A DNA stretch of 64,000 bases from positions 1 through 64,000 of the forward strand of contig CALXOW010000001.1 in the NCBI GenBank assembly GCA_944390115.1, written 5' to 3'. This document shows, in pieces, positions 20,624 to 62,163 of the stretch. Below the pieces are notes generated by a model that ran no database searches, was not told the DNA's origin, and saw only the letters and a program-made list of their open reading frames with translations. Position 1 is the first letter of the stretch, and every line of letters begins with the position of its first letter. Source of the stretch: an uncultured Anaerobiospirillum sp. (GTDB lineage: Bacteria; Pseudomonadota; Gammaproteobacteria; Enterobacterales; Succinivibrionaceae). The position numbers were made by a program, and so were the translations under genes.

Positions 20624-20648
20624 GAGATGACCATTTAGAGAGAGAAAC

Positions 20649-21946: not shown

Positions 21947-21974
21947 AAATAAAAACGGCAGGTTGCCCTGCCGT
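21947..21974 (-). terminator. flagellin terminator, copy 3
   Basis: The hairpin is identical to the other two flagellin terminators, with TTTTTATTT on the minus strand. Confidence 0.9.
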
Positions 21975-22000
21975 GAGATGACCATTTAAGAGAGAGAAAC

Positions 22001-23032
22001 TTATTGACCGAGCAGGCTCAAAGCGATAGTTGGACGCTGGTTAGCCTGGGCCAGCACGGTCTGCGAAGCCTGCTGGATGATGTTGTTCTGGGTGAGCGCT
22101 GCGGTCTCAGAGGCAAAGTCGGTGTCGCGGATACGCGAGCGAGCATCGGACTCGTTCTCGGAGATATTGGATTGATTTCGGATGGTGGCTTCCATGCGGT
22201 TCTGGATCGCACCTAACTCGGCACGACGGGAGTCAACATACTGGATAAATTTGTCAATGTTGCCAATAACCGCTTCGGCGTTATCTGCACTGGAGATAGT
22301 CCATGTTATGTACAGAAGATCTGCCGCAGCGTTACCGCCATTGGTAACCCACTTCAAACCATAGTTTTTTGAATTTCTACCAACGGTGATTTCTTTACCG
22401 TCTATACGAATTTGACTCGCCTTGAGGCCATCTGTAATGGCCATCGTTAAAATGCCGCTCATGTTAAAGGCGTCCTTCCAATCAAGTTTGATGCAGTCGT
22501 CCTGATTTGAACCGACGTGGAATACCAGTTGACCACCTTTAGACTGATAAACTCTTCCGACTTTAACACGCTCGTATTGTGGGATCAGACTTGAGCCATT
22601 TCCGGTATCAGCACCATCGAGGATCTGTTTTCCGGCAAAAGTCGTATCAGAGGCAATACGGTTGATTTCTTCGCAGAGTTGCTCTACTTCTTGTTGCAGA
22701 GCCTTGCGATCTTCCGAGCTATTGGTACCGTTAGCCGATTGAACTGCCAGCGTGCGGATGCGCTGGAGCATATTGGTGGTTTCGTCGAGCGCACCTTCAA
22801 TGGTCTGGGCCAGGGCGATGCCGTCGTTGGCATTGCGGTTACCTTGGTTCAATCCATTGATCTGGGAGGTCAAGCGATCCGAGATCATTAAGCCTGCGGC
22901 GTCATCTTTAGCGGAATTGATGCGTAAGCCCGAGGCTAAGCGCTGATAGCTGACGTTCAGCGAATTGGTAGCGTTGGTCAGCTTGCGCTGGGCGTTGATC
23001 GACGAGACGTTAGTATTGACGTAAAGTGCCAT
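22001..23032 (-). CDS. fliC: flagellin, copy 3
   Basis: This is the longest of the three flagellins (343 residues). The N-terminal 104 residues and the C-terminal 75 are shared with the others. The central domain (about residues 135-265) is the largest and most divergent, with basic segments such as RVKVGRVYQSKGGQLVFHVG and a KEITVGRNSKNYGLKW stretch. It is the upstream-most gene in transcription order; each copy has its own promoter and terminator, so expression is probably independent. No fliD, fliS or flaG gene is next to the cluster. Confidence 0.95.
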   Translation of the reverse strand: MALYVNTNVSSINAQRKLTNATNSLNVSYQRLASGLRINSAKDDAAGLMISDRLTSQINGLNQGNRNANDGIALAQTIEGALDETTNMLQRIRTLAVQSANGTNSSEDRKALQQEVEQLCEEINRIASDTTFAGKQILDGADTGNGSSLIPQYERVKVGRVYQSKGGQLVFHVGSNQDDCIKLDWKDAFNMSGILTMAITDGLKASQIRIDGKEITVGRNSKNYGLKWVTNGGNAAADLLYITWTISSADNAEAVIGNIDKFIQYVDSRRAELGAIQNRMEATIRNQSNISENESDARSRIRDTDFASETAALTQNNIIQQASQTVLAQANQRPTIALSLLGQ

Positions 23033-39536: not shown

Positions 39537-39690
39537 GCATAGGGCGCACAAACGCGATCTAAGAATTAGGAACACAAGAAGAATAGGGGCGCTAAGAGCG
39601 CTATCGCAATTAGGGGCGCATCAGCGCCGAAAGTATAGGGTGCGCGAGCGCCGAAAACATAGGGCGCAAGCTGCGCCCAAGCGCCGTGCT
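39537..39690 (+). repeat. array of iterated GC-rich mini-hairpins
   Basis: The unit AGGG(C/G/T)GCGC recurs about every 30 nt. Each unit is followed by a short loop and a complementary GCGC(C) arm: GGCGC-TAAGA-GCGC, GGCGC-ATCA-GCGCC, GGTGCGC-GAGCGCC and GGGCGC-AAGCT-GCGCCC. They are separated by A-rich spacers such as GAAAGTAT and GAAAACAT. The block lies between the metQ terminator and the J-domain gene and continues weakly to 39770. Confidence 0.55.
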
Positions 39691-39770
39691 TGAGGTCAGG
39701 CACAGCGCCAAGTGAGCGCCGTAAGGCGCTGGGTTTATGCGCGGTGGCGCACAGAGCAAAAGGGCACGAA

Positions 39771-41153
39771 GTGACGCGACTTTTTCTGATTCATTTAGGC
39801 CGCTTTCTCCGCTGCTATTTGCTAGCATGCTTTGGCAGCGTCTTGCTCGTGCCGCTTTCCTTTAATATCTACGATGTCATCACCCAAAATGGCTATCGTA
39901 ATGACCTCATGTTTCTGTGTACAGCGGTACTGCCGGGCGTGATCGCGGCAGGCTACACTTGGTACCAGCGGCGCCGCGTTAACTCCGATGAGATTTTGTT
40001 CTTTGTGCGCAATCGCTTGCGCTTGCATCCTGAGCTGTTACGCCCGTACTTTGCCTTAACGGGAGTGTTGCTCAGGGAAGTGGGCTTTGACCTCAATGAG
40101 CATCAGCGCAAGTTCTTAGCGGCATTGCACCTGGCAGATGAGATCGAGCGCGAGGCGCTGGCCACCCAAGCGGCCGCCAATGCCACTGCGATGGGCCTGG
40201 GTGATTTTGAGCTCAAACGCGAGCCTGGGGTGATCAATGAACTGCGCTTAGATCAGCTCGCAGCAGCTGCGGCCCAAACCGAGGCCTTAGGCTGTGTTGA
40301 GACGATCGTGCTCGCCAGCAATCTCATTTTAAAGCGCAAAAATCTTGAGTTAAGCAAGCAATACTTGTTACAGGGTTTAAACCCAGAGGGGATGAGCTTA
40401 GAGCAGGCGCTTAAAGATTTGCAGACGGCAATCAGCGGTTATGGGCCTTACTTTGAGGCTTGGGTCGCTATTTCCTTGACGCGCTCGGTCATGAATGCAC
40501 TGCCCCCAGAGCAGCATCGCGACTTTAATGCCCTGCGGCAAAACCCAGTGATCCACCAAGTAGCAGCTGCGCTGTTAGCCAATGAGGTGGCCTATCGCTG
40601 CGCCCATAATTTCTCGTTTATGCTCAATCAAGAGGTCTATCGCCTGCGCCATCGGGCCGCCTTTATTCGCCAGCAATTTGAGCAAGCGCAAGCGGCGGCG
40701 CGGGCGCGCCGTCAAGGTGAGACCGAGCAAACTCAGGGCACCAAGCAGCATAATGGCTACAGCTTTAGGCAAGGCCCCGACGACGCCTTTTCCTATGGCT
40801 CCTACTATTATCACGGCTATTACGAGCCGGGCCAAGATCCGCGTTATGGCGCTGAGCATGAGGACTTTGAGGGCTCGCGCTACAGCTATCGCGATCACTA
40901 CAAGCGTGACGCGGGCGCAGATGAACCCAAGGAAGAGCTCACGGAGCTGCAAAAGGCTTATCAGATCTTGGGAGTGAGTGCAGATGACTCAGTTAGCACC
41001 ATCAAAGCCCAGTATCGCCGCCTGGCCTTTCGCTTCCACCCTGATCACATCAAGGATTACTTGCACCTAAGTCCAGGGCAGCAGCGCTTGCTCAATGCTA
41101 AATTCCAAGAGATCTGCGCCGCCTATAGCACGGTTATGGCCTCACGCCAGTAG
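39771..41153 (+). CDS. membrane-anchored J-domain protein (DjlA-like)
   Basis: This predicted co-chaperone recruits DnaK/Hsp70. Near the N-terminus is a hydrophobic pair of segments (about residues 8-30 and 40-60), then a helical, TerB/DjlA-like cytosolic region. A Tyr/Gly/Asp-rich linker (GSYYYHGYYEPG) leads to a C-terminal J domain with LQKAYQILGVSADDSVSTIK and the essential HPD (His423-Pro-Asp in FHPDHI). The layout resembles DjlA (N-terminal TM, TerB region, C-terminal J domain). The frame opens at a TTG (39690), but GTG at 39771 has AAAGGG 6 nt upstream and begins right before the first TM segment. 460 residues. Confidence 0.8.
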   Translation: MTRLFLIHLGRFLRCYLLACFGSVLLVPLSFNIYDVITQNGYRNDLMFLCTAVLPGVIAAGYTWYQRRRVNSDEILFFVRNRLRLHPELLRPYFALTGVLLREVGFDLNEHQRKFLAALHLADEIEREALATQAAANATAMGLGDFELKREPGVINELRLDQLAAAAAQTEALGCVETIVLASNLILKRKNLELSKQYLLQGLNPEGMSLEQALKDLQTAISGYGPYFEAWVAISLTRSVMNALPPEQHRDFNALRQNPVIHQVAAALLANEVAYRCAHNFSFMLNQEVYRLRHRAAFIRQQFEQAQAAARARRQGETEQTQGTKQHNGYSFRQGPDDAFSYGSYYYHGYYEPGQDPRYGAEHEDFEGSRYSYRDHYKRDAGADEPKEELTELQKAYQILGVSADDSVSTIKAQYRRLAFRFHPDHIKDYLHLSPGQQRLLNAKFQEICAAYSTVMASRQ

Positions 41154-41489: not shown

Positions 41490-42935
41490 ATGTCAAAGAA
41501 AGCGCAACAAAACGCGAGCCGCCGCGCCGCCGCTAAACGGGTCGCCCGCCAAAAGGCTTTAGCCAAGAAGGCTCAGGCGGGAAATTCAGCGCCAAGCAAA
41601 GCGTCCAATCAGGAGCCAATTTTTGGTACTGGGGGCATGCCTGATTTCTTTTCGATGAAGTGGCAACAAGAACTGCTGGGGAGTGTTATGCCAACTAATG
41701 CCAAGTTGGTCGAAGAGCACGACACTGCCGTGCCTGAGCAGTTCTATCTGGTCAAGGTAAAGCTCAATAACGCTGACAATAAGGTGTGGCGGCGCATCTT
41801 AATCAGCAATAAGGAGCGCCTGTCGGATCTGCATAACGAGATCAAGAGAGTCTTTACCTGGGACGATGATCGTGAGGCCTTCTTCTATGATGATGCCACC
41901 TGCCGTAATTTAATAAGCTGCACTGAACTGCGACCAGGCCACTTTTTTCCTGATTGTAGGCTCGACCAAGTGTTAAAGTCGGGTAAGAAATTAGGTTATG
42001 TTTTAGATCAGTTCAGCGGATGGCAACACACCATCACGGTCGAACAGGTCGTGGCCGATCGCAGTGAACTACCGGCAGACTTAGTCTGGAGTCAGGGCAA
42101 TGATGTCGAGCAGTTTCTAGGCTCCGATGCTTTCTCTGAGATCGATGAAGAGACTAGGAACGAGGCCGCCAAGTACAAAGGGGCGTACACGTTCAAAGTT
42201 GAGCTTCTGGGCACCAAGGAGCCAGTTTGGCGCACTATTGTCTGCCCAGCTAGCGACTATTTTGGCAATCTTTCCAATAGCATTCATGATAGCTTTGGCT
42301 GGACAGAAGGCTATTATCCGGGCGCTTTCTACAGCGACCCAGAGTGCCAGCAAGTGCTGAGCAGTGCGTTGAACGCAACGGGATATTTTGGGCATGATTA
42401 TTTAGGGGCGGTGCTTAAGCCTGGCATGCAATTCATCTTTACCTGTGGTATTGAGCAAAGCAAACGCTTCCTAGTTACGGTGGAACGTTGGGCCTCTTGT
42501 CAAGGGGAAGCGGCAGCAGGAACTATCAGGGGCGTAGGCGACTTCAATAAAGAAGACTTACAGCCTGATGTTAGCTACTTGCTCAAGGTTGAGCGCAGCA
42601 ACTCCACTACTCCATTATGGTTCCGCGTATTGCTTAACAACAAGGACAACTTTGAGGACTTGTTCGAGGCAATCAAGGAGCAGCTCACCAGGCAACAAAA
42701 GACACTTGCGACTTTCTATTTGGATTCAAGTTTTCAGGTCAAACTGTGTGCGTTCAACCAATATTTTGGGGGGATCTTCCCTAACCCTAAGCTGTTCAAG
42801 TGGCTCGAACCAGGCCTAAAGTTTGGTTTTAGCTCAGGGCCTGAGCAGCAGTACACCATCACGGTCGAGCAAGTGGTAGCTGATAAGAGTGAGTTGCCGA
42901 GCGATTTGCAGTGGTCGCAAGGCGTAAACGCCTAA
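41490..42935 (+). CDS. three-domain pRiA4b ORF-3-like protein
   Basis: The 481-residue protein has a Lys/Arg/Ala-rich N-terminal 45 residues (RRAAAKRVARQKALAKKAQ) and three tandem domains at about 84-210, 232-345 and 362-481. Each domain follows the pattern (Y/F)xLKVxL...WRRIxxxxxxxxSDLHxxI...FxW, then Y/F-x-D...PDP, G, and (F/V)TVE...LP.DLxWSQG. This is the plasmid pRiA4b ORF-3 / IS1096 TnpR-passenger-like fold (PF07929), whose function is unknown. Domains 1 and 3 end in the same ADRSELPADLVWSQG-type motif. GAGGAAGG precedes the ATG. It is the first gene of a six-gene, same-strand run. Confidence 0.8.
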   Translation: MSKKAQQNASRRAAAKRVARQKALAKKAQAGNSAPSKASNQEPIFGTGGMPDFFSMKWQQELLGSVMPTNAKLVEEHDTAVPEQFYLVKVKLNNADNKVWRRILISNKERLSDLHNEIKRVFTWDDDREAFFYDDATCRNLISCTELRPGHFFPDCRLDQVLKSGKKLGYVLDQFSGWQHTITVEQVVADRSELPADLVWSQGNDVEQFLGSDAFSEIDEETRNEAAKYKGAYTFKVELLGTKEPVWRTIVCPASDYFGNLSNSIHDSFGWTEGYYPGAFYSDPECQQVLSSALNATGYFGHDYLGAVLKPGMQFIFTCGIEQSKRFLVTVERWASCQGEAAAGTIRGVGDFNKEDLQPDVSYLLKVERSNSTTPLWFRVLLNNKDNFEDLFEAIKEQLTRQQKTLATFYLDSSFQVKLCAFNQYFGGIFPNPKLFKWLEPGLKFGFSSGPEQQYTITVEQVVADKSELPSDLQWSQGVNA

Positions 42936-42985
42936 GCTGCGGTAAGTGAGGCCAGCAGAGGTTGGCCTTGTTAAGGAGAATTGTC

Positions 42986-45900
42986 ATGGCGTCAAAAAAT
43001 AAGAACAAGGCCAAGCCTCAGCAGGCAGCGGCCAACAACAGAGCCTCACCGCAACAGGCGTCAGGCAGTAACAAGGCCAAGTCTCAACAGGCTGGTAGCA
43101 ATAAGCCCAAGTCGCAGCAGGGGGCGAGCAAAAAGACAGCGCCGCAGCAGACTGTGGGCGGTAAGAAGTCCGGGCCGCAGCGCGGGAGTAACGGCAAGTC
43201 CCCTGCTCAGCACAATACGGCGCAACAAAAGGTTAAGGCTCAGTACGAAGAGGCTAAGGCTAAGATCGTTCAGGCCAATCAGGGCATTAACTTTTTCCTC
43301 TTTAAGGTGCAGAACTTGCGCGCCTATCCGCCGCAGTGGCATCGTATCGTGCTGCGCGCCGACGCTAAATTATCGGAGCTGAGCCGTCAGATCGAAGAAA
43401 ACTTTGGCCACGCTCAGGGTAAGGCCAGCTTCTACCGCGATTCAGGCTGCGTCGATAAGGTCAGCTCGCGTGGTGCGCACTCCACTAAGTTCAACCCTGA
43501 TTTGACGCTGCGCGAGGTCTTTATTAAAGGCCATTGCTATGGCTATCTGTGCGGCGAGCATAACGAGTTGCGGCACACCGTGATGGTCGAGCATGCTGAG
43601 GCCAAAGAAAGAGACCTGCCTAATGCGCTTCAGATGCACGAGTTTGGCTATCGCCCTCGTGATTATTACGACGATGACTTCGACGAAGATGATGAGGAGT
43701 TCATCTTCGATGACGAAGACGACGAGTTAGAGGATGAGTTCGAGGATGACTACGAGGACGATTCCGACGAGTACGAGGATGATGTCGACGAGTACGACGA
43801 CGATGACTCTGAGGATGAGGAGGCCCCGGTCGGTTGCTTTTCCCTCAAGGTTGAGCTGGTAGGGGCTCAGCCACCGGTACGCCGCGTGATCGACCTCAAT
43901 GCCAATGACCAATTCTCGGATTTAGTCGAGCAAATGCTTGAGGCATTTGACATCGAGCATGAGTTGCTGGGCACCTTCTATCGCGATGCCAAGTGCACAA
44001 AGAAATTGTGCAGCTCGCTCAACGACGATGATGAGATGCATCCGAATCATTATCTGGGCTCCGAACTCAAAAAAGGCCAGCGCTTTTACTTCGCCTTTGG
44101 CTTAATGCAAAGCAAGAAGTTTGCGCTCACAGTTGAGGATTATGCCTTAGAGCGCAAGGATTTAGCGTATGACTTATGGGGTGGTGAAGGCGATCTTGAT
44201 GATATCAATGGCCCTGAGTGCTATTACCTGCTTAAGGTCACGCTCAAAGGCTTTAACAAGAAGATTTGGCGTCGCATCGCTATCAGCAACCAGGCCCATT
44301 TCTCGGGCTTGCAAAACGCGGTGATTGATCGGTTTGACTGGGAGGATTCCTACAGCTACGAATCTGTCTTCTACTGCGACACTGAGTGTCTCTATACTTT
44401 TTGCCAAACGGACGAGGATGAGTGGACCTTTGATTACGATCCACCGCTGTTCCAATTTTTGGAGCCGGGCATCAAGTTTGGTCTGACGATTGACTTGGCC
44501 GAGCACGTGATCGAGGTGGAGCGGGTGATTAAGGGCCAAAACGATCTGCCGCAAAACTTAGTCTGGTACCACGGTGACTTTACCCCGCGCGATTTCTTCA
44601 TCAACAACTTCAACGGCCTCGATGACGATGATGACGACGAACTTGACGCCGAGGAAGATGACATCGAGGACGAGGATGACTCGCCCGCGTATCAAGGTAA
44701 CACCGATGCTGCCTTGGCCGGTTACTTTGCTCTCCAGTTTGAGCTGGTGGGCGCCCAGCCGCCGCTGCGCCGCAACATCGTAATCAGTGCTGACTCCCAA
44801 TGCTCGGATTTAGTCTATGAGATGTTCGAGGAGCTGGGCTATGATCTACATTTGCTCGGTACTTTCTTTAGCGACCTCAAGTGCACCAAGCGTTTGTGCA
44901 GCTCGCTCAATGACGATGAAAAGATGCTGCCTGACCCGTATCTGGGCCATGAGCTCAAAAAAGGTCAGCGCTTGTGCTATGCCTATGGCTTGAGGCAGCG
45001 CCAGAAATTGGCGATCACGGTGGTCGATCGGGCCTTAGAGCAGCAGGACTTAAAGTTCGATGCCGACTACAACACTGGCTCCCTAGCAGAGCTCAAGATC
45101 CCTAAGCGCACTTATCTGCTCAAGGTTACGGTCAAAGACATTAAGAAGCAGGTCTGGCGCCGAATCGCAATCAGCAACCAGGCTCATTTCTCTGACTTGC
45201 AAGTCGCAATCCTCTCTGAGCTGGGCTGGGACCAAATTTATAGCTTCGACACCGCTTTCTACTGCGATCCTGAGTGCAACTACATCTTTTGCCAAACGAT
45301 TACGGATAAGTGGACCTATGATGTAGATCCGCCGCTGTTCCAATTTTTGCAGCCGGGCATCAAGTTTGGTGCCGAGATCGATTTAAACGAGCTGGTGATT
45401 GAGGTAGAGCGCGAGGTCAAAAGCAAGAGCGAGTTACCTGCCAACTTAGTCTGGCGTCAAGGTAGCTTTGTCCCGCAAGCTTTAGACTCCAGCGACGATG
45501 AGCTGGACGACGATGAGTTTTATTTCCTGCTCGACGACGATGAACTTGAGGACGAAGACGAGTTTGAGGACGAGGATGACGACGAAGATGAGGTTCCGGT
45601 CGGCTGCTTTGCCGTCAAGTTTGAGCAGGTGGGAGCGCAGCCGCCGCTACGGGGCACTTTATTGGTCAATGCTAACAAGGGCTTCTCTGATTTAGGTGCC
45701 GCTATGTTGCATGCGCTGGGCTTTGAGCAAGACTTCTTGGGCTCCTTCTACCGCGATGCTAAGTGCAAAAAGCTCATTTGCAGCTCGTTTAACAATGACG
45801 AAGAGATGCAGCCTGATCCGTACTTGGGATCGGAGCTCAAAAAAGGCCAGTGTCTGTACTTCACCTATGGCTTGATGCAGCGCAAGAAGCTCAAGATCAC

Positions 45901-46345
45901 GGTGTCAGATTACGGCTGGTTGCCTGAGAATTTAGCAATGGACCCAGACTATGCCGTGGGCTCGGTTGAGGATGCCTCAGGAATTGAGGAGTGCTCTTAC
46001 CTGCTCAAGATCGCTGTCGAAAGATCCAAGCACCAGGTCTGGCGCCGGATCCTGATCGGCAACAAGCAGCGCTTCTCAGACTTGCAAAACGCGCTCAGCA
46101 AGAGCTTGGGTTGGGATAAGCACGACTTAATTTCAAGCTTTTACAGCGATCCTGAGTGCAAATTCGTCTTTTGTCAGACGGATGAGGGTGAGGACCTTGA
46201 TGCTGATCCGCAACTGTGCTATTTCTTAGAGCCCGGTATCAAGTTTGGCTTCAAGCTTGGCCGCAAGCAATGCGTGATCGAGGTGGAGCGCGTGCTCAAG
46301 AGCAAAGACGAGTTGCCACCAGACTTAGTCTGGAGCCAGGGCTAA
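42986..46345 (+). CDS. giant seven-domain pRiA4b ORF-3-like protein with acidic linkers
   Basis: The 1,119-residue protein starts at ATG 42986 (AAGGAGA 7 nt upstream; the frame is open from 42962). Residues 1-90 are Lys/Gln/Ser-rich and basic, with SQQ-type repeats. Domain A is at about 100-215. Then a two-domain unit B-C occurs three times: B at 281-391, 578-690 and 872-985; C at 411-530, 709-830 and 1004-1119. Asp/Glu-rich linkers (about 225-277, 543-568 and 834-870) precede each B. B domains share VGAQPP(V/L)RR, LCSSLNDDDEM-like and GSELKKGQ motifs. C domains share KKxWRRIAISNQAHFS, FYCDxEC and FLEPGIKFG. The internal triplication is evident. Function unknown. Confidence 0.8.
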   Translation: MASKNKNKAKPQQAAANNRASPQQASGSNKAKSQQAGSNKPKSQQGASKKTAPQQTVGGKKSGPQRGSNGKSPAQHNTAQQKVKAQYEEAKAKIVQANQGINFFLFKVQNLRAYPPQWHRIVLRADAKLSELSRQIEENFGHAQGKASFYRDSGCVDKVSSRGAHSTKFNPDLTLREVFIKGHCYGYLCGEHNELRHTVMVEHAEAKERDLPNALQMHEFGYRPRDYYDDDFDEDDEEFIFDDEDDELEDEFEDDYEDDSDEYEDDVDEYDDDDSEDEEAPVGCFSLKVELVGAQPPVRRVIDLNANDQFSDLVEQMLEAFDIEHELLGTFYRDAKCTKKLCSSLNDDDEMHPNHYLGSELKKGQRFYFAFGLMQSKKFALTVEDYALERKDLAYDLWGGEGDLDDINGPECYYLLKVTLKGFNKKIWRRIAISNQAHFSGLQNAVIDRFDWEDSYSYESVFYCDTECLYTFCQTDEDEWTFDYDPPLFQFLEPGIKFGLTIDLAEHVIEVERVIKGQNDLPQNLVWYHGDFTPRDFFINNFNGLDDDDDDELDAEEDDIEDEDDSPAYQGNTDAALAGYFALQFELVGAQPPLRRNIVISADSQCSDLVYEMFEELGYDLHLLGTFFSDLKCTKRLCSSLNDDEKMLPDPYLGHELKKGQRLCYAYGLRQRQKLAITVVDRALEQQDLKFDADYNTGSLAELKIPKRTYLLKVTVKDIKKQVWRRIAISNQAHFSDLQVAILSELGWDQIYSFDTAFYCDPECNYIFCQTITDKWTYDVDPPLFQFLQPGIKFGAEIDLNELVIEVEREVKSKSELPANLVWRQGSFVPQALDSSDDELDDDEFYFLLDDDELEDEDEFEDEDDDEDEVPVGCFAVKFEQVGAQPPLRGTLLVNANKGFSDLGAAMLHALGFEQDFLGSFYRDAKCKKLICSSFNNDEEMQPDPYLGSELKKGQCLYFTYGLMQRKKLKITVSDYGWLPENLAMDPDYAVGSVEDASGIEECSYLLKIAVERSKHQVWRRILIGNKQRFSDLQNALSKSLGWDKHDLISSFYSDPECKFVFCQTDEGEDLDADPQLCYFLEPGIKFGFKLGRKQCVIEVERVLKSKDELPPDLVWSQG

Positions 46346-46386
46346 CTCAAGCCACTTGATTTCATCTGTAAATTTTAGGAGCTGCT

Positions 46387-47304
46387 ATGGCTACAACCTC
46401 AAAGAAGACCAAGCCTGAGCTTGAGGCAGAACGTGCTGACCTCGAACCAGATGGGGTTGAACTCGACGACGAGTTCGAGGATGACTTTGAGGAGGACTAC
46501 GGCGAGGCGAAAGGCTGGTTCTTGCTCAAAGTCGAGCTGCTGCAATATAAGGTGCCAGTGTGGCGCCGTATCACGCTCCCTGACAATGCCCAATTGAGCG
46601 ATCTTAAGGATTGCATCCTGGAGCATTTTGGCTTGGACGATGATGTCGATACCGAGTTCTACGCGGGCGACAGCTTCAAGAAGTTTGTGACCTGCACGGG
46701 GCTTGTGGCGGATTATTATGACCCGGATCCTACCTTGCGCCAATTGCTAAATCCGGGTAAGTACCTTGGTTTTCAGCTTGCTGATGCCAAGAAGTCACGC
46801 TTCCTGGTCACGTTCGAGCAGTTTGTGCAAAACCGAGGTGAGCTGCCTCTTGATTTGGTGATGGAGCAAGGCGTGATTGAGGATGATGTCCCTGAGTACT
46901 TTTTCCTGCTCAAGGTGCAGCTCAAAGGTGCTAAGCCTCCGGTCTGGCGCCGCATCTTAATCTCGAGCAAGAAGCGTTTTTCGGATTTGCATCGCGAAAT
47001 CCAGTTCAAGTTTGGCTGGGATAACGACCACTTGGCGGCCTTCTACGCTGACAAAGGCTTTCGCAATGAGTTTTGCGTGGCCGACTATCCTGGTGAGTTC
47101 ACACCTGATCCCAAGCTGGAGCGCTTTCTTGCGGTGGGCGTAGCCTTTAGCTACCTCTTTGACTTTGGCGACTGCTGGCGCCATGTCATCACGGTCGAAA
47201 AGGTGGTGTCCGATCGCAGCGAGCTGCCGCAAAAGCTGATTTGGTCCAAGGGCGATAACGTCCCACAGTATCCGAACTTCGACGACGAAGAAGATTTTGA
47301 GTAA
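46387..47304 (+). CDS. two-domain pRiA4b ORF-3-like protein
   Basis: The 305-residue protein has an acidic N-terminus (DDEFEDDFEEDYGEA) followed by two domains at about 43-165 and 172-295. The second is the most canonical in the cluster: LLKVQLKGAKPPVWRRILIS, DLHREIQFKFGWDNDHLAAF, FSYLFDFGDCWRHVITVEKV and LPQKLIWSKGDNVPQYPNFD. The first lacks the DFGDxWxH signature. The tail is acidic (DDEEDFE). TTTAGGAGCTGCT precedes ATG. It starts 41 nt after the seven-domain gene and ends 10 nt before the next, so cotranscription is likely. Confidence 0.82.
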   Translation: MATTSKKTKPELEAERADLEPDGVELDDEFEDDFEEDYGEAKGWFLLKVELLQYKVPVWRRITLPDNAQLSDLKDCILEHFGLDDDVDTEFYAGDSFKKFVTCTGLVADYYDPDPTLRQLLNPGKYLGFQLADAKKSRFLVTFEQFVQNRGELPLDLVMEQGVIEDDVPEYFFLLKVQLKGAKPPVWRRILISSKKRFSDLHREIQFKFGWDNDHLAAFYADKGFRNEFCVADYPGEFTPDPKLERFLAVGVAFSYLFDFGDCWRHVITVEKVVSDRSELPQKLIWSKGDNVPQYPNFDDEEDFE

Positions 47305-47313
47305 GGAGCCAAT

Positions 47314-48036
47314 ATGGCAAAGAAAACTTCAGCCTCACGCAATGCCAGTAAGAAGGCGATGCAAAAGAAGGCTGCACGCCAAAAGGCCTTAGCCAAGAAG
47401 GGAAGCGGACCAAGCCGCGATAATTCCGCCTTTGGCTTTGATGGCATGGACATGTCAGGCATGGGGATGCCTAATTTTGGCTCAATCGGCGCGGGCGATA
47501 TGGACTCGTTTTTTGCGCATATGGATCAGGCCAATGCATGGGCGCAACGCCAGAGAGAGCTCAAGGCACCGCGCAATAAGGCGCGTTTTGCCCAGAACGC
47601 TCAGGCTAACGAGGGTGTTAATTTCTTCCTCGTTAAGGTGAGCTACACCAAGGCCGCAAGCCCGGTGTGGCGTCGTTTGGTGATCTCCGCTGACGCTCCT
47701 GTCTCTGTCCTGCATTCCGACATTCAAGATGCCTTTGATTGGGACAATGACCATATGTCGTGCTTTTGCTGGGACACGGCCTGCCACGATGATTTTTCGG
47801 TCACGGTCGACAACCCTTGGACCTTTGTCCCTAATCCAAAAGTGCGCGAAGTGCTGCGGGAAGGGGCCAAAATTGGCTACAACTACAACTTTTTCCATGA
47901 CATGATCCACGTGATCGAAGTGGAAAAGGCCATGGTCGAGATTAACGACTACGATCCGGATCTTAAGATGGAGCAGGGGGAGCCTCCTGAGATGCCAGGT
48001 ACAGCGATCCTGATGCCGTTCTCAATGGACCATTAG
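47314..48036 (+). CDS. single-domain pRiA4b ORF-3-like protein with basic N-terminus
   Basis: The 240-residue protein has a Lys/Arg/Ala-rich start (SRNASKKAMQKKAARQKALA) resembling the N-terminus of the first gene in the cluster, then a Gly/Met/Phe-rich segment (about 40-65). One domain lies at about 104-225 (FLVKVSYTKAASPVWRRLVI, SDIQDAFDWDNDHMSCF, NYNFFHDMIHVIEVEKA). The DFGDxWxH signature is altered to NFFHDMIH. GGAGCC lies 6 nt upstream of ATG. The following 236 nt (48037-48272) hold no gene. Confidence 0.8.
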   Translation: MAKKTSASRNASKKAMQKKAARQKALAKKGSGPSRDNSAFGFDGMDMSGMGMPNFGSIGAGDMDSFFAHMDQANAWAQRQRELKAPRNKARFAQNAQANEGVNFFLVKVSYTKAASPVWRRLVISADAPVSVLHSDIQDAFDWDNDHMSCFCWDTACHDDFSVTVDNPWTFVPNPKVREVLREGAKIGYNYNFFHDMIHVIEVEKAMVEINDYDPDLKMEQGEPPEMPGTAILMPFSMDH

Positions 48037-48272
48037 GCGCCAAAAATGGCCGTTCTTGCGAAGTGATTCCATTTTCCGTGAGCCCGGCCATGTTATCGCA
48101 AGCAAAGCGCAGCAACCAGATCAAAACACGCTAAAACACCGTAAAATGGTGTAAAACCAAGTCCTCATGATCGCACTATTGCGTGAATCGTTTTCGATGA
48201 GATCTGGTCCGCTGCTATCAGCTGAGCTCACTTGAGCTCAAGCCGTGCTCCTCACAAATTTAGGTTCTCATT

Positions 48273-49385
48273 ATGGTCAAAGCAACTACCAAGAAGGCCG
48301 CTCTCACCGAGTCGGATGCAACTGAAACCACCGCCAAGAGCGTCGCTAAAAAGCCAAGTGCCAAGCGCACCTGCGCTAAGAAGACTGCTGCTAAGGCAGC
48401 TCAGGTCCCGGAAGCCCCAGCTGAGGTTGCAGTAGCCGAAAAGCCAGCAGCTAAGAAAGCTTGCGCCAAGCGTACCTGCGCTAAGAAGACTGCCGTCAAG
48501 GCCGATTCGGTTCCGGAAGCTCAGGCTGAGGTTGCAGTAGCCGAAAAGCCAGCAGCTAAGAAAGCTTGCGCCAAGCGTACCTGCGCTAAGAAGACTGCCG
48601 TCAAGGCCGATTCGGTTCCGGAAGCTCAGGCTGAGGTTGCAGTAGCCGAAAAGCCAGCAGCTAAGAAAGCTTGCGCCAAGCGTACCTGTGCTAAGAAGTC
48701 TGCCGTCAAGGCCGATTCGGTTCCGGAGGCTCCAGCTGACACGGCTAAGCCTGCTAAGAAGGCGAGCACCAAGAAGTCTGCTGCCAAGACTGCTCCGGCT
48801 CAGGAGACTCCAGCTGACGTGGCTAAGCCTGCTAAGAAGGCGAGCACCAAGAAGAGCGCTGCCAAGGCTGCTCTGACCCAGGAGGCTCCAGCCGACGAGG
48901 CTAAGCCTGCTAAGAAGTCCAGCACCAAGAAGACTGCCGCTCAGGCCAGTTCTAAGAAGGTTGCTGGGGGCCTGTTCCTGCTGAAGGTCGAGCTCAGCGA
49001 CAATTTCAATGATGTGTGGAGTCGCAATCCGCACCAAGTGTGGCGTCGTATTCTGATCTCTGGTAACAAGCGCTTCTCTGATTTGCATGATGAAATTCAG
49101 CATGCATTTGACTGGCTCGATGACCACTTAGCTGGTTTCTTCTGGGACAGGCCTTATGGTGAGACCATCAGCGAAATCGTTGAGTCGGGGGCGTTTGTGC
49201 CTAATCCTAAGCTCAATGCCAAGCTAGAGTCAGGCATGCAAATCTACTACGTCTTCGATTTCGGTGATGACTGGACGCACCTCATTACCGTTGAGGGGGT
49301 CTATGACTCTGAGGCTGATGTACCGCAAGATTTGGTCTGGAGTGAGGGTGAATCCTTCGATCAATACCCTGACTTCGAGGATTAG
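48273..49385 (+). CDS. histone-H1-like tail fused to a pRiA4b ORF-3-like domain
   Basis: In this 370-residue protein, residues 1-230 are a Lys/Ala/Pro-rich, strongly basic tail like histone H1 or bacterial H1-like proteins. It comprises three 35-residue repeats (AAKKACAKRTCAKKTAVK core) and then three 26-residue repeats (AKPAKKASTKKSAAK core). Residues about 233-370 are one canonical pRiA4b-like domain (LFLLKVELSDNFNDVWSRN, HQVWRRILISGNKRFSDLHD, YYVFDFGDDWTHLITVEG) ending in an acidic FDQYPDFED. A DNA-binding role for the tail is inferred from composition. Cysteines occur regularly in the first repeat set (KKACAKRTCAKK), unusual for H1-like tails. The SD is weak. Confidence 0.8.
   Translation: MVKATTKKAALTESDATETTAKSVAKKPSAKRTCAKKTAAKAAQVPEAPAEVAVAEKPAAKKACAKRTCAKKTAVKADSVPEAQAEVAVAEKPAAKKACAKRTCAKKTAVKADSVPEAQAEVAVAEKPAAKKACAKRTCAKKSAVKADSVPEAPADTAKPAKKASTKKSAAKTAPAQETPADVAKPAKKASTKKSAAKAALTQEAPADEAKPAKKSSTKKTAAQASSKKVAGGLFLLKVELSDNFNDVWSRNPHQVWRRILISGNKRFSDLHDEIQHAFDWLDDHLAGFFWDRPYGETISEIVESGAFVPNPKLNAKLESGMQIYYVFDFGDDWTHLITVEGVYDSEADVPQDLVWSEGESFDQYPDFED
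48421..48735 (+). repeat. three 105-bp in-frame tandem repeats
   Basis: Units start at 48421, 48526 and 48631 (beginning CTGAGGTTGCAGTAGCC) with only a few substitutions. They encode the 35-residue H1-like repeat. A second in-frame set of about 78 bp follows (48736-48960). Near identity suggests recent expansion and likely length variation. Confidence 0.9.
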
Positions 49386-49466
49386 GAACATCGGCAGCGT
49401 GCTGTGTTAAGAACCACGGGGCTAGGGAGCTTTCCTTAGCCCTGTGCTGGATAGAAGGAGCTTGCA

Positions 49467-50063
49467 ATGAACTCTGATGAAGCGCAGCGCTTCTTATCGT
49501 TCCTTAATGGAGATGTATCTGAGATAGAGAGACGCTGTGGCGCAGGTTTTTAGCGCTTTAATCTAGATGACCAGGCTCTTGCGGGGCGGTCCATTAATCA
49601 ATGGGATGGCGAGAGTCTGGAGAGTAAGACTTTTCCTAAACCTTCGTGCTATTTCCAGCTCAAGGTGACCCTAAAAGACACCTCGGAGCCTTGCTGGCGC
49701 CGGATTATTATTCCCAATACTGCGCGCCTGTCCGATCTGCACGACGAGATTAAGTATCGCTTCGATTACTGTGGCCCATTTATGGCCCAGTTCTACTGGC
49801 CGAAGGAGCGCATCTATATTGCTGATACCGACGGTGAAATGAGCGATGACTACGTGCTGGTGCCAGATTACAAGGTGGGTAACGTGCTAACCGAGGGCAT
49901 GCGTTTCCAGTACACTTACGATTTTCGTCGCTTCTATGAGCACACGATTGTCGTGGAAAAGGTGCTCAAGAGTCCCGATGAGGTCTCACCGCGCTTGCGC
50001 ATGGAAAAGGGAGATAACCCTGAAGTGCTGCATGGTGACTTCACGGACTTTTATGAGGAATAG
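49467..50063 (+). pseudogene. pRiA4b ORF-3-like gene interrupted by an in-frame amber codon
   Basis: ATG at 49467 has AGAAGGAG 6 nt upstream and opens a frame that meets TAG at 49551-49553 (codon 29). The same frame then continues without a stop to 50063. The downstream part encodes a full domain (CYFQLKVTLKDTSEPCWRRI, DLHDEIKYRFDYCGPF, YTYDFRRFYEHTIVVEKV). A single substitution (for example TGG to TAG) explains the break. Amber read-through or internal initiation cannot be excluded. It is the last member of the cluster. Confidence 0.75.
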
Positions 50064-50474: not shown

Positions 50475-51617
50475 ATGATCGAACTTAAGAACATCGAGAA
50501 AGTGTACAACCAAGGCACCTCCAAAGAGGTCAGAGCCTTGCGCAACATTTCTCTTACCATTGAACGGGGCGAGATTTTTGGTGTGATTGGTCTGTCAGGT
50601 GCAGGTAAGTCCACCTTGATCCGTCACATCAATATGTTGGAGCGGCCAAGCTCAGGTCAGGTCATCGTAGACGGTCAGGATTTGACCGCTATGAATGAAA
50701 AGGAACTGCGCGAGGTGCGTCGCCATATCGGCATGATTTTCCAGAGCTTCAATCTGCTCTCCTCGGCCACGGTAGCTGAAAATGTCGCTTTCCCACTTAA
50801 GCTGGTCTCAGGCCCTGAGCGCTTAAGCGATGAGGCGATTGCCGCCCGCGTCAAGGAGCTTTTGGAGTTAGTTGAGCTCTCGGACAAGGCTGAGATGTAT
50901 CCAGCCCAGCTCTCTGGTGGTCAAAAGCAGCGCGTTGGTATTGCCCGTGCCTTAGCCGGTAATCCAAAGATCTTACTGTGCGACGAGGCAACCTCTGCGC
51001 TCGATCCTAAGACCACGATGTCGATCTTGAAGCTCTTGATGACGTTACGCGATAAGCTCAACCTCACGATCGTCATCATTACCCACCAGATGGAAGTGAT
51101 CAAGGAATGCTGCGATCGCGTTGCAGTGATTGACGGCGGTGTCATTTCCGAGCTGGGTACTTCGCTTGATATCTTCACTGAGCCAAAGCAAGCCTTAACT
51201 AAGCGCTTAGTAAGTGCGGCGGTGCGCCGTGGCCTGCCAGAGCTCTTGCGTCATACCGAGATTGTCTCCGAGTACCATGAAGGCGCCAAGGCGGTGATTG
51301 AGCTCTTATTCTTGGGTCCTAAGGCCGACGCTCCGGTCATTGTTGAGGTCGCCCAAGAGTGTAAGGTTGCAATCAGTATCTTAGGTGGCTCGATTGACCA
51401 CATTAAGACCGAGCCATTTGGCTTGCTCGTTATTGAGGTCGGAGGCAGCCGCGCTGAGATTGAGCACGCTATTGAGGTGCTCACCGAGCGCGTCCACAAG
51501 GTCGAGATCTTAGGCTACGATCAGCGCGTCCAACTCGCTGATTTAAACGATGCGGCGCACGTTGCTGCTGCATCAGCTGCTACGGCACCAGCAGCCACTG
51601 TAAGCGAGGGCGAGTAA
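50475..51617 (+). CDS. metN: methionine ABC transporter ATP-binding protein MetN
   Basis: The 380-residue ATPase of the MetNIQ importer has Walker A GLSGAGKST, Q-loop FQSFNLLSS, signature LSGGQKQRVGIARALA, Walker B ILLCDEATSALD and H-loop IVIITHQMEV. A C-terminal NIL domain (about 262-345, LLFLGPKADAPVIVEVAQ, then ISILGGSIDHI) in this family senses intracellular methionine and inhibits transport. An Ala-rich tail of about 25 residues extends beyond E. coli MetN (343). The stop overlaps the metI start (TAATG). Confidence 0.95.
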   Translation: MIELKNIEKVYNQGTSKEVRALRNISLTIERGEIFGVIGLSGAGKSTLIRHINMLERPSSGQVIVDGQDLTAMNEKELREVRRHIGMIFQSFNLLSSATVAENVAFPLKLVSGPERLSDEAIAARVKELLELVELSDKAEMYPAQLSGGQKQRVGIARALAGNPKILLCDEATSALDPKTTMSILKLLMTLRDKLNLTIVIITHQMEVIKECCDRVAVIDGGVISELGTSLDIFTEPKQALTKRLVSAAVRRGLPELLRHTEIVSEYHEGAKAVIELLFLGPKADAPVIVEVAQECKVAISILGGSIDHIKTEPFGLLVIEVGGSRAEIEHAIEVLTERVHKVEILGYDQRVQLADLNDAAHVAAASAATAPAATVSEGE

Positions 51618-55288: not shown

Positions 55289-58200
55289 TTAGAGCAGGCC
55301 TTGCTCTTTGAGTTTGGTCATAACCTTTTGCGCGGTCAGCGAGTTGAGCTCCAAGCGGTGGCGCAGGTCGCGCTCAGTGAGGCGCTGGCCCTGAGCTGCA
55401 GCGATGATCGTCTTGGCTTGCTCCACTAGTTGCTCTAGCTCGCCCGTGGTTATGATGGTATCACTATCACAGAGCTGCGGTACGTACTCGGGATCGCCGT
55501 AGCGCTGATGCCAAGCGTCGATCATGGACTTGATGTCCTGCTCGGTGACGTAGGCGCCGTGAGCGCGGTGCGTGGTCTCATTGCTGAAGCGATGGAGCAT
55601 GTCACCGCGACCCAAGAGCATCTCGGCTCCATTTTCGTCCAGAATAATCTGCGACTCGTGGTAATCGCTGACCTTAAAGGCAATGCGTGCTGGCAGATTG
55701 CTCTTGATGAGGCCGGTGACCACGTTGGCGCGCGGTGATTGGGTCGCGAAAATCAGGTGAATGCCTGCAGCACGGCACTTGCCCGCCAGCTGCGCAATCA
55801 AGTTCTCAAACTCGCTGCCCTTGGAGCGCCCGCCCGCCCGAGTTTGCGCCATTAAGTCGTTGAACTCGTCGATCAAAACCACGATGCGTGGCAGCGGCTC
55901 CAAGTACTCCACGACCTTTTCGTCCTTGATAAAGTAGTTTTGGACCTGATGACCGTGGGCGCGCTCTTTTGTGATGAAGTCGTTGTAAACCTTCATGCTG
56001 CTGGTTTGCGTGACGTCATCAAAGAGCTTATAGCGACGCTCCATTTCGGCGATACACCAGCGCAAGGCGGTCATGGCATCGACCGTGACATCCTTGATCG
56101 GCGGTACCAGCATGTGCGGCAGCTTCTCGTAGGCTTGGAACTCGCGCTTCGGGTCAATGATGATAAGACGCAGCTCCTGCGGCGAGTGCTTGGCGATGAG
56201 CGAGAGCAAAATCGCGTTTAAGCCTACTGACTTACCTGCGCCCGTAGTACCTGCCACTAAGAGGTGCGGACCACCTTCCACCAAGTCGCGCACAACTGGC
56301 GTGCCATCAGGGGCTAAACCCAAGGCTAAAGGCAGAGCGGCCTGGCTTTGGGCAAACTCGGTGCTGACCAGCACGTCGCCTAAGGCAATGGTCTGGCGCT
56401 TCTTGTTAGGTACTTCCAAGCTGACATTGCTGGCGGTAAAGCGCACTAAGTCCACCCCTAGCTTGCGCGGCATTTCGCCGACGATGCGCTCAATTGCTTT
56501 GGTGGTTTCGCCATAGCCTAGTTGCAGCACAAAGCGGGTGATGACCGGGCCTGGGACGTAACACTTGCGGTTGACCCTAGCTTTGACTCCAAACTCACGC
56601 AGCACATCATCGATCTTATTGGCCATTTCCTCGAGCTTGCGCTCACTGGCCTCTTGATCGTACTGCGAGCGCGGTAAGAGCTCAGCTACCCGTGGGCGCC
56701 ATTCGTTGTAGGCGCGGCGCGGTACCGTGGCCAGCCATTCGCTGCGCTCTGGTGCCAGAACTTCAGATTCAGGCTGCGGCGGGGTTACAACCGGAGGCTC
56801 AACCGGTGGTTGCGGTGGCATAACTGGCGGCTCAACCGGCGGTTGCGGAGGCACAACTGGCGGTTGTGGCGGAACCGGTGGAACCTGAGGTGGATCCGGA
56901 ATTACAGGAGGTTGAGGCGGTTCAGGCATGACCACTGTCGTTGGCTGCGGCTCATCCTCAGGCTGTGGCGTTACCACGGTCTCTTCTGGCTGAGTGAACT
57001 CATCGTGAATGAGCGGTGCAGTTTGCCCGCCTAAGATGGGCTCGAGCCCTAAGCCTGAGTCACGGACGAGTTTTTCATGGTCGAGCTGGAAATTGTCTTG
57101 GGCTGAGGTTTCGACTTGGTTCGAGGTCTCGACCTTAGTTGAAGTCTCTTCCTTGGTTACTGCTACCGTCTGAGGCTCAGAGCTTGGCTCAGTCTTAATC
57201 TCTGGTTCTGGCTTTACGGTGGCAGGCAGCTGCGCTTGCAGCAAGAACTTAGGATCGTCCTTGATGCAGTACTGCTTGATCGTGTCATCGTGGCACTTCT
57301 CGGCGATGGCCTCCAGGGCCTGGTAGTTGCCCTTGCCTTGGTGCTGGTGGAATGTAGTCAGCACGGTAGTGACGCCCGCGCCGGTGAACTTGGCTTGCAC
57401 CAGTGGGAAGCCTTGGTTTGGACTTGATTTATCGAGCTTAGGATCGATATTAGCCTCGCACAGTGGTGGGGTGAGGTTGAGGCTCTCCCCTTCGTCCGCG
57501 CCACTGCTGCGGGCAAAGACCAAGGAGCAGCCCTTGAGCAGAATGTCGACCTGGCCGTTGCGAATGAGCTGCTGCACCCGGCTAAACTCGTCGGAGCCGA
57601 GGTTTTGCTCGGCGCTGAGCGGACTTAATTGATCGCTGTTGTCGACCAGCATGTCGGCGATGCGCGCCAGCCACTGTTTGCGATCTAAGCTGTGACGCGT
57701 GGCGTAGAGCTTAAAGGCGCGGTGCAAGAGTTCGGTGGTCTCGCGCGTCTGCTTTAAGGACTTATTGGCGGCATCGGTGCTGGTGCACTCTAAGAATTTG
57801 CTCTCCATGACTACCAGGTTTAACAGGTAGTGCGCCTCCCCGTTGACCTCGTGCTTGATAAGCTGAATACCTAAGAGGTCGGCCAGGCGCTTTTGGCGCT
57901 GCGACCCCACTGCTTGGAAGATGCTCTTGTAGTCATCGAGGTAAATCAAGCTGCGATAGGTCTGACCCTGAGCCTGATAGTGCTGAGCGATCAGGTCCAT
58001 CATGCTTTGCGCCATAAAGCCGGTTAGGACCACGCCCATCAGCTCATAGGCGTGTTGACGGCGCAGCTGCGCGTGCATCAGCAGACGCCCTGAGATATTA
58101 AGCGAGGCCTCGGCGACTTGAGCAAGGCAACTTGCTTGCTCTTCAGGGCTTAAGTTGGTGTCAGCCACCAACTCCTGCAAGAACTGGCGGGTCTTGGCCT

Positions 58201-61200
58201 CGACATTGACTTGGGTCGCGATGATGAAGTTGAGGCTATTGTGTGGCAGCTTTTGATAGTACAGGACGCGAATGCTCTGGCTCTTGAGCTGCTTGCGATC
58301 GAGCAAGTCATCAAGATAGAACACGGCATCACACGACTTGTGGATCTGCGTGATCGCTTGGGTCAGGCGATCGTTGCCGAGCGCGCGGTATTCATCTTCG
58401 ATGGTGCGCTCATAAAGCGGCGTCGGGACCGTCAGGGTGCTGGAGCTTGGCTCAGTTAAGCCCAGAGCGAGTGCGGCCTGTCCTGCTTGACTCAGGCTTA
58501 CTTGCTGCGCGGTCAGGGCTTGCTCGAGTTGTACTTGCGCCTTTTTGAAGTCTTGGTAGGAGCCAATCTTTAAGTAGTAGATACTGTGCAAGAGCATAAT
58601 CTTGCTTAAAGGCAAGACCGGACTGACCACAAAGCGCCCTAAGGCCTGGGTCGGCGTGGCGTCAACCATATTGATGAGCGATGGCTGGTAGTGCACCTCA
58701 TCGCTGACCACTGGGACCTCGTACGCCGGGGTGAATTGGAAGCTCGAGCGAGCATCGAAGGCATGCACCATCAGGCCAATTTGGGCAAAACGATCGTTGC
58801 CCGAGCTCTCATTGCTGTGCGCGCTGTCGTAGGTGTAGGTGTTTCCGTAGGTGCTGCCATAGCTGTTGGCGCTGACCGCATTTTGCTGCAAGCTCATGCG
58901 CTCTAAGTAATCGTTGAGCGTGCCAAAGCGCTTGCTTAAGCCGACGCCATTATCCTCGAGCAAGATGGTGACGCTGACGTCCTTGACGAACTCCGGGCCT
59001 TCAAGTGATTGCTTGAGGGCAAAGCGCTCACCTTCAAAGAGGGCAAATACCTCTTGGGCTTGCTGGGCGCTTGGGCACAATATGACCAAGTTCAAACGAG
59101 TGCCACTCCAGTTTTCGTGCTGCTCGTGCTGCAAGGTGCGATAGAGCTCCAAGGCAAAGCCTGGTACCGGGCAATGACTTAAGATCAGGGTGCATTGACT
59201 GAGCGGATAAGGGTGATGCTTGAGGTAAGCACCAATTTGCGCGCTCAAAGCACCTAAGGCTAATTCGCTGGAGTTGCTGCTGGCGTTAGCGCCACCAATG
59301 CCCGAGCAGCCGCCACCGCCTTGGGCACCGTTAGAGAGATTGGTCGTGATGGCCTTCTTCGGGCGCCCACGGCCCTTGAGATTGACGGGACGGGCAAGGT
59401 TCTCACCTAAGTCCGAGCGCAGCTTGTTGGAGGCCACATACAGGGTGTAGCCGCCTAAGGCTTGGGTGGCAATAAGTTCGCTATAACGGGCATTGACCGG
59501 GGCATCATGCTGACTTAAGCCATTGAGGCAGAGCTCGGGGGCGTCGTAGTAGTTGAGATCTTGCTCTAAGGAGGCCAAGAACACATCGCGATCGTTGATC
59601 GAAATTGGCTTTTCCAAGATGTCGCAGATGAGCTCTTGAGTGCGCTCGAGCTTGCAGGCGTGGCTGCGCAAGGCCTCGACCGTAAATGGAGTGGCAATGG
59701 CGTAGCTTGAGTCTTGGGCGCTGGCACTCTTACGATAGGCCATACCTACTTGCAAGATGAGAGCAAGCAGTTCCTTGAGCTTAGCGGTCGCCGGGCTCAA
59801 GCCTTGTTGCAGCTGATTAATCGGGCTCTGTAAGAGCTCGTACTGGAGGGCGCTATAGCTGTGGCTGAGCTCATGGCAGGCGTGCGGCTGCAAGGTGCAG
59901 TCTTTGAGCTGCTGTAAGCAGTCGTGATAGTGCTGCTCAAATTGAACAAAGCAATCTTTGATTGGTTGGGTAAGGCTAGGGTCGTTGAGCTGCTGCTCTA
60001 AGCTCTCCATCGTGGCCTGCCAGCGCGCGCTTAAGTCACAATCAGCGCTGTCGCTGACGTTAAAGAAGGTGCGCTCACTCTTCTCTGGAATCAAGAGCGT
60101 GGTGCTATTGTAGAGACTTAAGTCTTGGAGCGTGCCTTGCGCCGTAAACTCATCATGCTCAAAGAGGCCACAACGTAAGATTGGGCCTGAGGTGAGGGCC
60201 TCTAAGTCAGCACTGAAGAAGGAGCTGACGCGCTCAGGGCGCAGCTGCCAAGTGAGCTTAAACGGCTTGCCTTGCTCGAGCGTATTGCCTTCCTTTTTAC
60301 GATAGGTTGGAGTGAGCACCAAAACTAAGGTGAGATCGCGTTCCTTAGTGGACTTGGCAGGCTGTTTTTTCCCGCGTGCGGCAAAGAACTTTTGGTAGTT
60401 AAAGAGCGGATTGAGGTCGGGCTCGTCCTGGGACTCTGCTTGCTTCGAGGTGGTATTGCTCCCGGCGTAATCCACCACCAAGCGCCCGCCCAGGCGCTCG
60501 GTCAGGCCACGCAGGAACGCGCCATAGCGCAGGCTAAAGTACGACATCACCGCCGCATTCTTCTCTAAGATCTTCTGGGCGGTGCCATCTAAGGTGATGG
60601 TGAGGCGCTCGAGCAGCTCCTCGCTGTCGTCGCCGCTGCGGGCTAAGTTGAGCACCGCCTTGCTCAGCGATAAGAGGAAATTAGGCTCGGCGTAATTGTC
60701 CTCGTAGTAGATGTACTTTTCCCATTCCTTGCTGATCGACGTCTCTTGGTCGAAGATAGCGCGGCGGCTTTGGTAAAGCTCATTGAGCTCATTGCGATTG
60801 TCACGGGTCAGGGCCTTGACGTCTTGCTTGACCAACTCAATCGTGGTTTCTTCTTGGGTGGTGAGCTTGGCCTCGTTGGTCAAATTGTCCTGGAACATGG
60901 CCATGGTGCGCTCGTAGAGGCTCTTCTTTTGCTCGGCCTTAGGCTCAGGGTTAAAGAAGAGTTCGAGCTTGCCCGTCCATTCAATCGTGCACAGCTGCGC
61001 AAAAAGTGCCTCGCGCTTGCTTTTGGGAGCGACAAATTCCTTGAGCAGGCCTGACTCCCATTCAGCAAGCAGTGGTACTTCCTCCTTAGTGCCCTCAATC
61101 ACAGTCGTGGCCGTGAGCAGTGGGCTCAGGTTCTCTTTGAGCTTGTTAAGCTTGAAGCTCTCTAATGGCTGGCCAGCGGCGACCGCATAATTAAAGAGGG

Positions 61201-62137: not shown

Positions 62138-62163
62138 AGACGACAATCCCCAGCAAGGATGGA

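Follow-up and report, generated by a model that had tools for sequence, protein, structure and literature searches.

Bacterial operons with tandem ubiquitin-like domains have been published, and the polyUbl proteins of a 2006 survey carry two or three such domains in the part of it examined (PMC1779556). Homogeneous polyimmunity loci show, as far as the examined part of their description goes, same-orientation tandem paralogues, multi-domain proteins, content that varies between close relatives and usually one locus per organism (PMC3482391). The PF07929 family (PRiA4_ORF3) is connected with mobile DNA, as the preliminary description of the present locus had claimed: in the examined part of PMC3942029, a pRiA4-like ORF is common to 12 transposable elements assigned to the ISAzba1 group. 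No function for PF07929 was found in the literature searched, where the accession is named in no paper.

The window is the whole stretch analysed, 64,000 nucleotides from an uncultured Anaerobiospirillum sp., a gut bacterium. Within it, six plus-strand genes (g1-g6, Table 1) form an island. Their products score 60.7-128.5 bits against PF07929, all six exceeding the curated threshold of 26.6 bits (g6 scored from GTG 49665). With an iterated profile built from the island, we found 15 domains, split 3, 7, 2, 1, 1 and 1 over g1-g6. Because the matches of this profile also served to train it, the single domain g3-B was searched against the genome as an independent check; all 15 domains were recovered together with a single copy elsewhere (G000:C6), giving 16 matches at E ≤ 0.1. 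Both the domain count and the family assignment made previously are thus borne out. Scored by piece, the Pfam profile alone detects 13 of the 15 domains at E ≤ 10, some of them individually below the cut-off, and misses domains 1 and 6 of g2, while 27 of 28 isolated domains from the island and its relatives match at E ≤ 1. The island matches stop at positions 47-138 of the 173 profile positions, unlike those of many phylum members, which extend to 171-173; we therefore regard the island domains as a short form of PF07929, and the cut-off does not demand a match through the final position (173).

Table 1. Features of the island and its neighbours, in window positions; charges are net values
Feature	Position	Strand	Remarks
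Left neighbour, site A	39690..41153	+	C-terminal J domain, weak DjlA likeness
g1, 481 aa	41490..42935	+	Basic tail, stand-alone domain, A-B pair
g1 basic tail	41490-41741	+	+6; NASKKA-type motif
g1 stand-alone domain	41742-42098	+	
g1 A-B pair	42183-42923	+	
g2, 1119 aa	42986..46345	+	Basic tail, diverged domain, three A-B pairs
g2 basic tail	42986-43288	+	+17
g2 diverged domain (one)	43289-43642	+	
g2 acidic linker before pair 1	43643..43831	+	-38
g2 A-B pair 1	43832-44575	+	
g2 acidic linker before pair 2	44576..44719	+	-19
g2 A-B pair 2	44720-45463	+	
g2 acidic linker before pair 3	45464..45601	+	-26
g2 A-B pair 3	45602-46342	+	
g3, 305 aa	46387..47304	+	Acidic N-terminus (-12), A and B domains; structure predicted
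g3 A domain	46513-46872	+	
g3 B domain	46900-47253	+	DFGDxW retained
g4, 240 aa	47314..48036	+	Basic tail (+10) with NASKKA-type motif, one domain
g4 domain	47620-47979	+	
g5, 370 aa	48273..49385	+	Lysine/alanine-rich tail, then one domain
g5 tail, 232 aa	48273-48968	+	+32; tandem repeats inside
g5 domain	48969-49349	+	DFGDxW motif
g6	49467..50063	+	One domain (49647-50012); in-frame TAG at 49551-49553
Right neighbour, site A	50475..51617	+	metN-type ABC ATPase with NIL domain

All five A domains in the window precede a B domain. A and B together make up the fixed repeating unit; pairs with extra domains make up g1 and g2, one pair makes up g3, and g4, g5 and g6 each encode one specialised domain. 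In the tree, support is moderate for the A group and for the B groups, with several long branches flagged. The DFGDxW motif is kept in two of the 15 domains (g3-B and g5), and 13 of the 15 carry a negative net charge (-1 to -14), so that the domains themselves are unlikely candidates for binding nucleic acid. The basic and acidic segments reported before are real, as the charges of the tails, the linkers and the g3 N-terminus in Table 1 indicate, whereas the term "histone-like" is weak: the g5 tail, low in complexity, lysine/alanine-rich and partly built of tandem repeats (one at 93% match), reaches 35.1 bits against the HC2 cut-off of 40 (PF07382) and 26.4 against the NF038053 cut-off of 80. 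Judged from the sequence, ATG 42986 is a more likely start of g2 than TTG 42962. For g6, GTG 49665 is not convincing, being located within the domain; ATG 49467 is the natural start, and the in-frame TAG interrupts the frame. The orthologue in one relative (G003) is open across this stretch, and in the genome studied here g6 has probably been disrupted. Promoter-like sites are no commoner than expected (6 against 7.4), and 19 terminators were found against 15.4 expected.

The predicted structure of g3, a check that had been suggested for single and tandem domains, adopts a ubiquitin-like (β-grasp) fold with the order β-β-α-β-β. This fold agrees with that of 2i1s, a solved PF07929 member (MM3350 of Methanosarcina mazei) and the sole solved relative convincingly matched by sequence; two other sequence matches to solved structures (E 0.32 and 1.2) were put down to chance. 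The orientation of A against B in the model is uncertain (pTM 0.51). The closest functionally described structural match of g3 is SNAPC3, a promoter-binding subunit, at a level of likeness that a common arrangement can explain. SNAPC3 is absent among the 50 Foldseek matches listed, and it gives no sequence-profile match to the island domains. The DFGDxW stretch may also resemble SNAPC3. SNAPC3 by itself is a poor DNA binder, according to the examined part of published work.

Relatives in the genus hold the same kind of set at another chromosomal address (site B, as against site A in the window), and the island therefore looks like a real gene module. Each address has empty counterparts in other genomes, the metN-type ABC ATPase gene beside site A having served as a flank in locating empty sites, and the domain types and their order are kept between the two addresses. 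All these relatives are draft assemblies, with the set in G003, G010 and G002 split over contigs or lying at a contig end. The J-domain neighbour was ruled out as a member of the module because the site B set lies without it; a 565-aa gene adjoining the site B set was ruled out as a core part, with no match in the genome of the window. No match at all occurs in 4 of the 11 genus genomes, so that the set is dispensable, and the g4 type is also present in G003, G008 and G010. Purifying selection acts on most island genes: dN/dS, from an experimental Biopython module, is below 0.5 in five of six, and the value of 0.80 for g1 is uninformative because dS is only 0.0099. The expansion is real and local, as the preliminary description had held; most segments match PF07929 and the genes are neither scattered nor unrelated, so that the contrary outcomes it had named beforehand did not occur.

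The same comparison bears on an unlikely alternative, in which tandem duplication and exchange keep producing mostly unneeded copies that share no assembly. Copy number at one address ranges from 2 to 15. Next to its two genes, G009 shows a pair of short, weak matches (E 0.003 and 0.08) of the kind expected from decayed copies; G002 holds six full domains and a partial g4, and the interrupted g6 and the repeat in the g5 tail point the same way. Such drift is at odds with the low dN/dS values, with the order kept across two addresses and with the invariable A-B succession in the window.

We tentatively favour the reading that the island is a module specific to its lineage and encodes multivalent scaffold proteins built from ubiquitin-like domains. 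The copies that retain DFGDxW would be the probable carriers of an ancestral binding site; the others would have kept the fold and lost the site, serving as structural or partner-specific modules. We infer that the proteins may co-assemble, as the preliminary description had suggested together with a possible role in nucleic-acid binding or mimicry, that the basic tails may tether them to something acidic, with nucleic acid or the acidic linkers of partner proteins as the likeliest candidates, and that these linkers may hold the A-B pairs apart. The set, which may move as one block, would come and go and be reassembled at a handful of chromosomal addresses, in the manner of an accessory module for conflict or stress and not of a core function. 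A clearly unlikely version of this architecture is a chromatin-like or condensate-forming system, in which ubiquitin-fold chains, joined through acidic spacers and held in place by histone-like tails, would serve to organise nucleic acid or to sequester foreign DNA, the whole travelling as a block between addresses; if so, the likeness to SNAPC3 would reflect a shared nucleic-acid-bound ubiquitin-like domain.

It is improbable that the set is a DNA-transaction accessory derived from transposon cargo, with PF07929 helping a mobile element and the set still moving or silencing DNA. The shared ORF of the ISAzba1 group, the relatives of g3 in 599 plasmid records (E ≤ 1e-5), the occurrence at more than one address, the SNAPC3 match and a sub-threshold helix-turn-helix match in one relative suit this idea, but the neighbours scanned in the window and at site B include no recognised family of transposases or recombinases, the island is not bracketed by any of the 25 inverted repeats listed (of 26), and the island matches are of the short form described above. 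A scan of viral contigs with g3 also gave no relative, and a viral origin was ruled out on this ground; two phage records have distant matches, and PHROGs gave three one-off weak matches (E 0.02-0.03).

Elsewhere the protein family mostly gives one match per genome: 18 of the 20 other match-bearing genomes in the phylum sample have exactly one match. In a second phylum draw, 33 of 292 genomes have matches, at most nine per genome; where there are nine (G417), six share one score and lie on separate contigs. Another genome (G455) has two domains in one frame and a third match nearby. Two further genomes of the bacterial family (G352 and G361) have four matches each, partly fragments of one domain. 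Multi-copy sets and short tandems therefore exist elsewhere, and none near 15 was seen in these draws, which are samples of two phyla. The relatives compared from outside the genus had been picked up through peptide patterns including LFDFGDCW, so that their agreement in DFGDxW is by selection.

A polyimmunity-like locus, whose tandem paralogous domains would each neutralise a different incoming toxin and whose multi-domain members would be polyvalent, is unlikely. The island does follow the pattern in its tandem same-strand paralogues and its content differing between relatives, and g3-B weakly matches a CDI immunity family (CdiI_4, E 0.0016). However, this match lies below the cut-off and is confined to one domain out of 28, and kinship with CdiI_4 seems doubtful; PADLOC gave no defence model match for the six proteins at E ≤ 1, and a known anti-phage defence system was rejected on this result. 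The 50 VIA structural matches listed include no immunity protein, which carries no weight for or against. In the examined part of PMC3482391, moreover, multi-domain immunity proteins tend toward small loci and possibly do not occur with extended ones, unlike here, and pRiA4 is not mentioned. It is highly improbable that the domains act as modifiers in a ubiquitin-like conjugation system such as that of the bacterial polyUbl operons: the fold occurs in tandem, but E1, E2-like and JAB families were not found among the genes scanned around the island in the window and around the site B set, a few of which match no family, and none of the six products ends in Gly-Gly.

The plasmid-borne relatives of a family for which the literature searched gave no function are a reason for interest, and an array of specialised copies that keep or lose the motif is a natural experiment on the role of the domain. 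If the proteins assemble, the seven domains of g2 would be the longest bacterial tandem ubiquitin-like run among those compared. As in the polyUbl operons, tandem ubiquitin-like domains occur in one bacterial protein; those operons, in the examined part of PMC1779556, have E1/JAB and E2-like fold proteins, and none were recognised beside the island. SNAPC3, from the eukaryotic snRNA promoter complex, differs in its zinc fingers in the sources as far as examined. Multi-domain members are common to the island and the polyimmunity loci (examined part of PMC3482391), from which the charged tails and linkers set the island apart. An array in another genus of the same bacterial family (G357) resembles the island in having a charged linker and, in two genes lying side by side, three PF07929 matches, but has three copies only and weak matches to the island profile. 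Finally, the other PF07929 carriers of the phylum sample mostly have one match each, whereas the six island genes hold 15 copies and add charged tails and linkers.

Six consecutive genes (g1-g6) form the island, and all six products pass the curated cut-off of the Pfam profile PF07929 (PRiA4_ORF3), the search that the preliminary description had proposed. With a profile built from the island we found 15 domains, distributed as 3, 7, 2, 1, 1 and 1 over g1-g6, in agreement with the organisation claimed there; 13 of them are separate matches at E ≤ 10 with the Pfam profile alone. As a check independent of the island profile, the second domain of g3 (g3-B) was searched against the whole genome and returned the same 15 and one lone copy from a different contig, giving 16 matches (E ≤ 0.1). 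The motif DFGDxW is retained by g3-B and g5 only (2/15). The most likely start of g2 is ATG 42986 and that of g6 was most likely once ATG 49467, with an in-frame TAG at 49551-49553 interrupting the gene; the g6 copy of G003, one of ten other genomes of the genus (G001-G010), is open at this point.

Coordinates of the island and of other features in the window
Feature	Positions	Strand	Remarks
Island, g1-g6	41490-50063	plus	six consecutive genes
Coding tandem repeats, g5 tail	48360-48937		105 bp and 78 bp units
Large FtsK/HerA-type protein and neighbour	55289-62194 and 62164-63999	minus	PADLOC matches
Three adjacent genes	19325-23032	minus	first 60 residues identical; presumably flagellin-like, judging by the start of the sequences

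A tree of 56 domains of the genus, several long branches of which are flagged, places the first domains of the g1, g2 and g3 pairs in one group, A (support 92/90), and the second domains in two B groups, one from g1 and g2 (85/84) and the other joining g3 with G008 and G002 (89/88). The unit is therefore the A-B pair, of which g1 contains one, g2 three and g3 one, with intra-pair spacers of 20, 9, 10, 12 and 9 residues. In g4, g5 and g6 the only domain clusters with its counterparts from other genomes (97/92, 98/96 and 100/100). Judged from their sequences, the domain copies are not interchangeable.

The basic and acidic segments noted earlier are borne out: g1, g2, g4 and g5 carry basic tails, g3 has an acidic start, and an acidic linker precedes each g2 pair (net charge -38, -19 and -26); 13/15 domains are themselves net negative. 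All nine matches of the tail motif type NASKKAMxKKAxRxKALAKK, from 5/11 genus genomes, lie on PF07929 genes. In the window the motif belongs to the g1 and g4 types, whereas in G008 and G002 it is the g5 type that carries it; tails have thus been swapped between domains. The 105-bp repeat in the g5 tail has 3.6 copies (93% match), and the g5 frame is shorter in G003; thus the tail length differs between relatives. A ubiquitin-like fold is predicted for g3, yet it is very improbable that the island domains would act by polyUbl conjugation, whose enzymes were not recognised among the neighbours scanned in the window and at site B and whose Gly-Gly ends are absent from the island products.

In a phylum draw, 20 of 298 other genomes match PF07929 (E ≤ 0.001), 18 with one match, one with two and one with three, in line with the claim that the family is normally a single-domain protein. 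In a second phylum 33/292 genomes match; the maximum is nine, in G417, where six matches have equal scores and lie on different contigs, the pattern expected of insertion-sequence cargo. Matches occur in 30/57 genomes of the family, the genus counted in, and in 7/11 of the genus; one genome of another genus of the family has a small array (three matches in two genes). At L126:3256-5409 and L127:841-2118, from other genera of the family, each match is divided into two parts with about 160-210 residues between them, and the former protein has a sub-threshold N-terminal helix-turn-helix match.

The window's 15 domains lie between a J-domain gene and metN (site A). At this address G003 has the same set, spread over two contigs; G009 has two single-domain genes; G010 has three domains at a contig end, its metN-side contig bearing one short weak match; and in G005, G002 and G007 the two flanking genes share a contig, but none of these domains lies between them. 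Occupancy could not be judged in G001, G004, G006 and G008. Site B lies between ftsL and ftsI. In G008 it holds nine domains, arranged AB, g4, AB, g5, AB, g6, and a Mur ligase comes after ftsI; in G002 the cluster, which is spread over contigs C183 and C200, comprises six complete domains and part of a g4. G002 is thus empty at site A and filled at site B. The ftsL and ftsI matches are ≤ 1.3 kb apart in the window's genome, G003, G009, G005, G006, G007 and G010; G001 has no ftsL match and the contig ends in G004. The type order is identical at sites A and B, rather than the genes being scattered and unrelated in relatives. At a third place, in G001, a two-domain gene lies between glpX and an elongation-factor gene. 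No transposase or recombinase adjoining site A or B was recognised among the neighbours scanned. Neutral turnover of copies, with which the partial copies and the interrupted g6 agree, is an unlikely explanation.

Adjoining the site B set in G008 and G002 is a 565-aa protein without a recognised Pfam family (L044:6502-8196), with a weak match in G001 and none in the window's genome. Measured stop to stop, the G008 FtsL frame (L044:14343-15893) has 517 aa, with Pfam FtsL at 422-513, and the FtsI frame (L044:2758-5775) has 1006 aa, with alignments to most relatives starting near residue 456; the two frames thus seem to be considerably extended at the N-terminus.

Comparison of the window with G003 gives dN/dS values of 0.17 for g2 (C-terminal 840 codons), 0.26 for g3, 0.11 for g4, 0.49 for g5 and 0.21 for g6 (the part after the stop), and 0.21, 0.05 and 0 for flanking genes. 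The value of 0.80 for g1 says little because g1 is nearly identical (dS 0.0099). Sequence identity varies along the region in a mosaic fashion, which may reflect recombination between relatives. About 5 kb beyond the island, the FtsK/HerA-type protein and its neighbour match SspH (E 7.8e-163) and SspG (E 1.1e-50) and therefore constitute a candidate Ssp restriction system.

Our tentative reading is that the island encodes multivalent scaffolds of ubiquitin fold, bearing charged tails and spacers, and that this module would be gained and lost as a block. A polyimmunity model as described in PMC3482391, which the gene organisation of the island would fit, seems rather improbable. For the scaffold module, nucleic acid would be a candidate target, favoured by the basic tails, the sub-threshold helix-turn-helix match in a relative, the structural match to SNAPC3, a subunit of the eukaryotic snRNA promoter complex, and the PF07929 family members that transposable elements carry, as described in PMC3942029.
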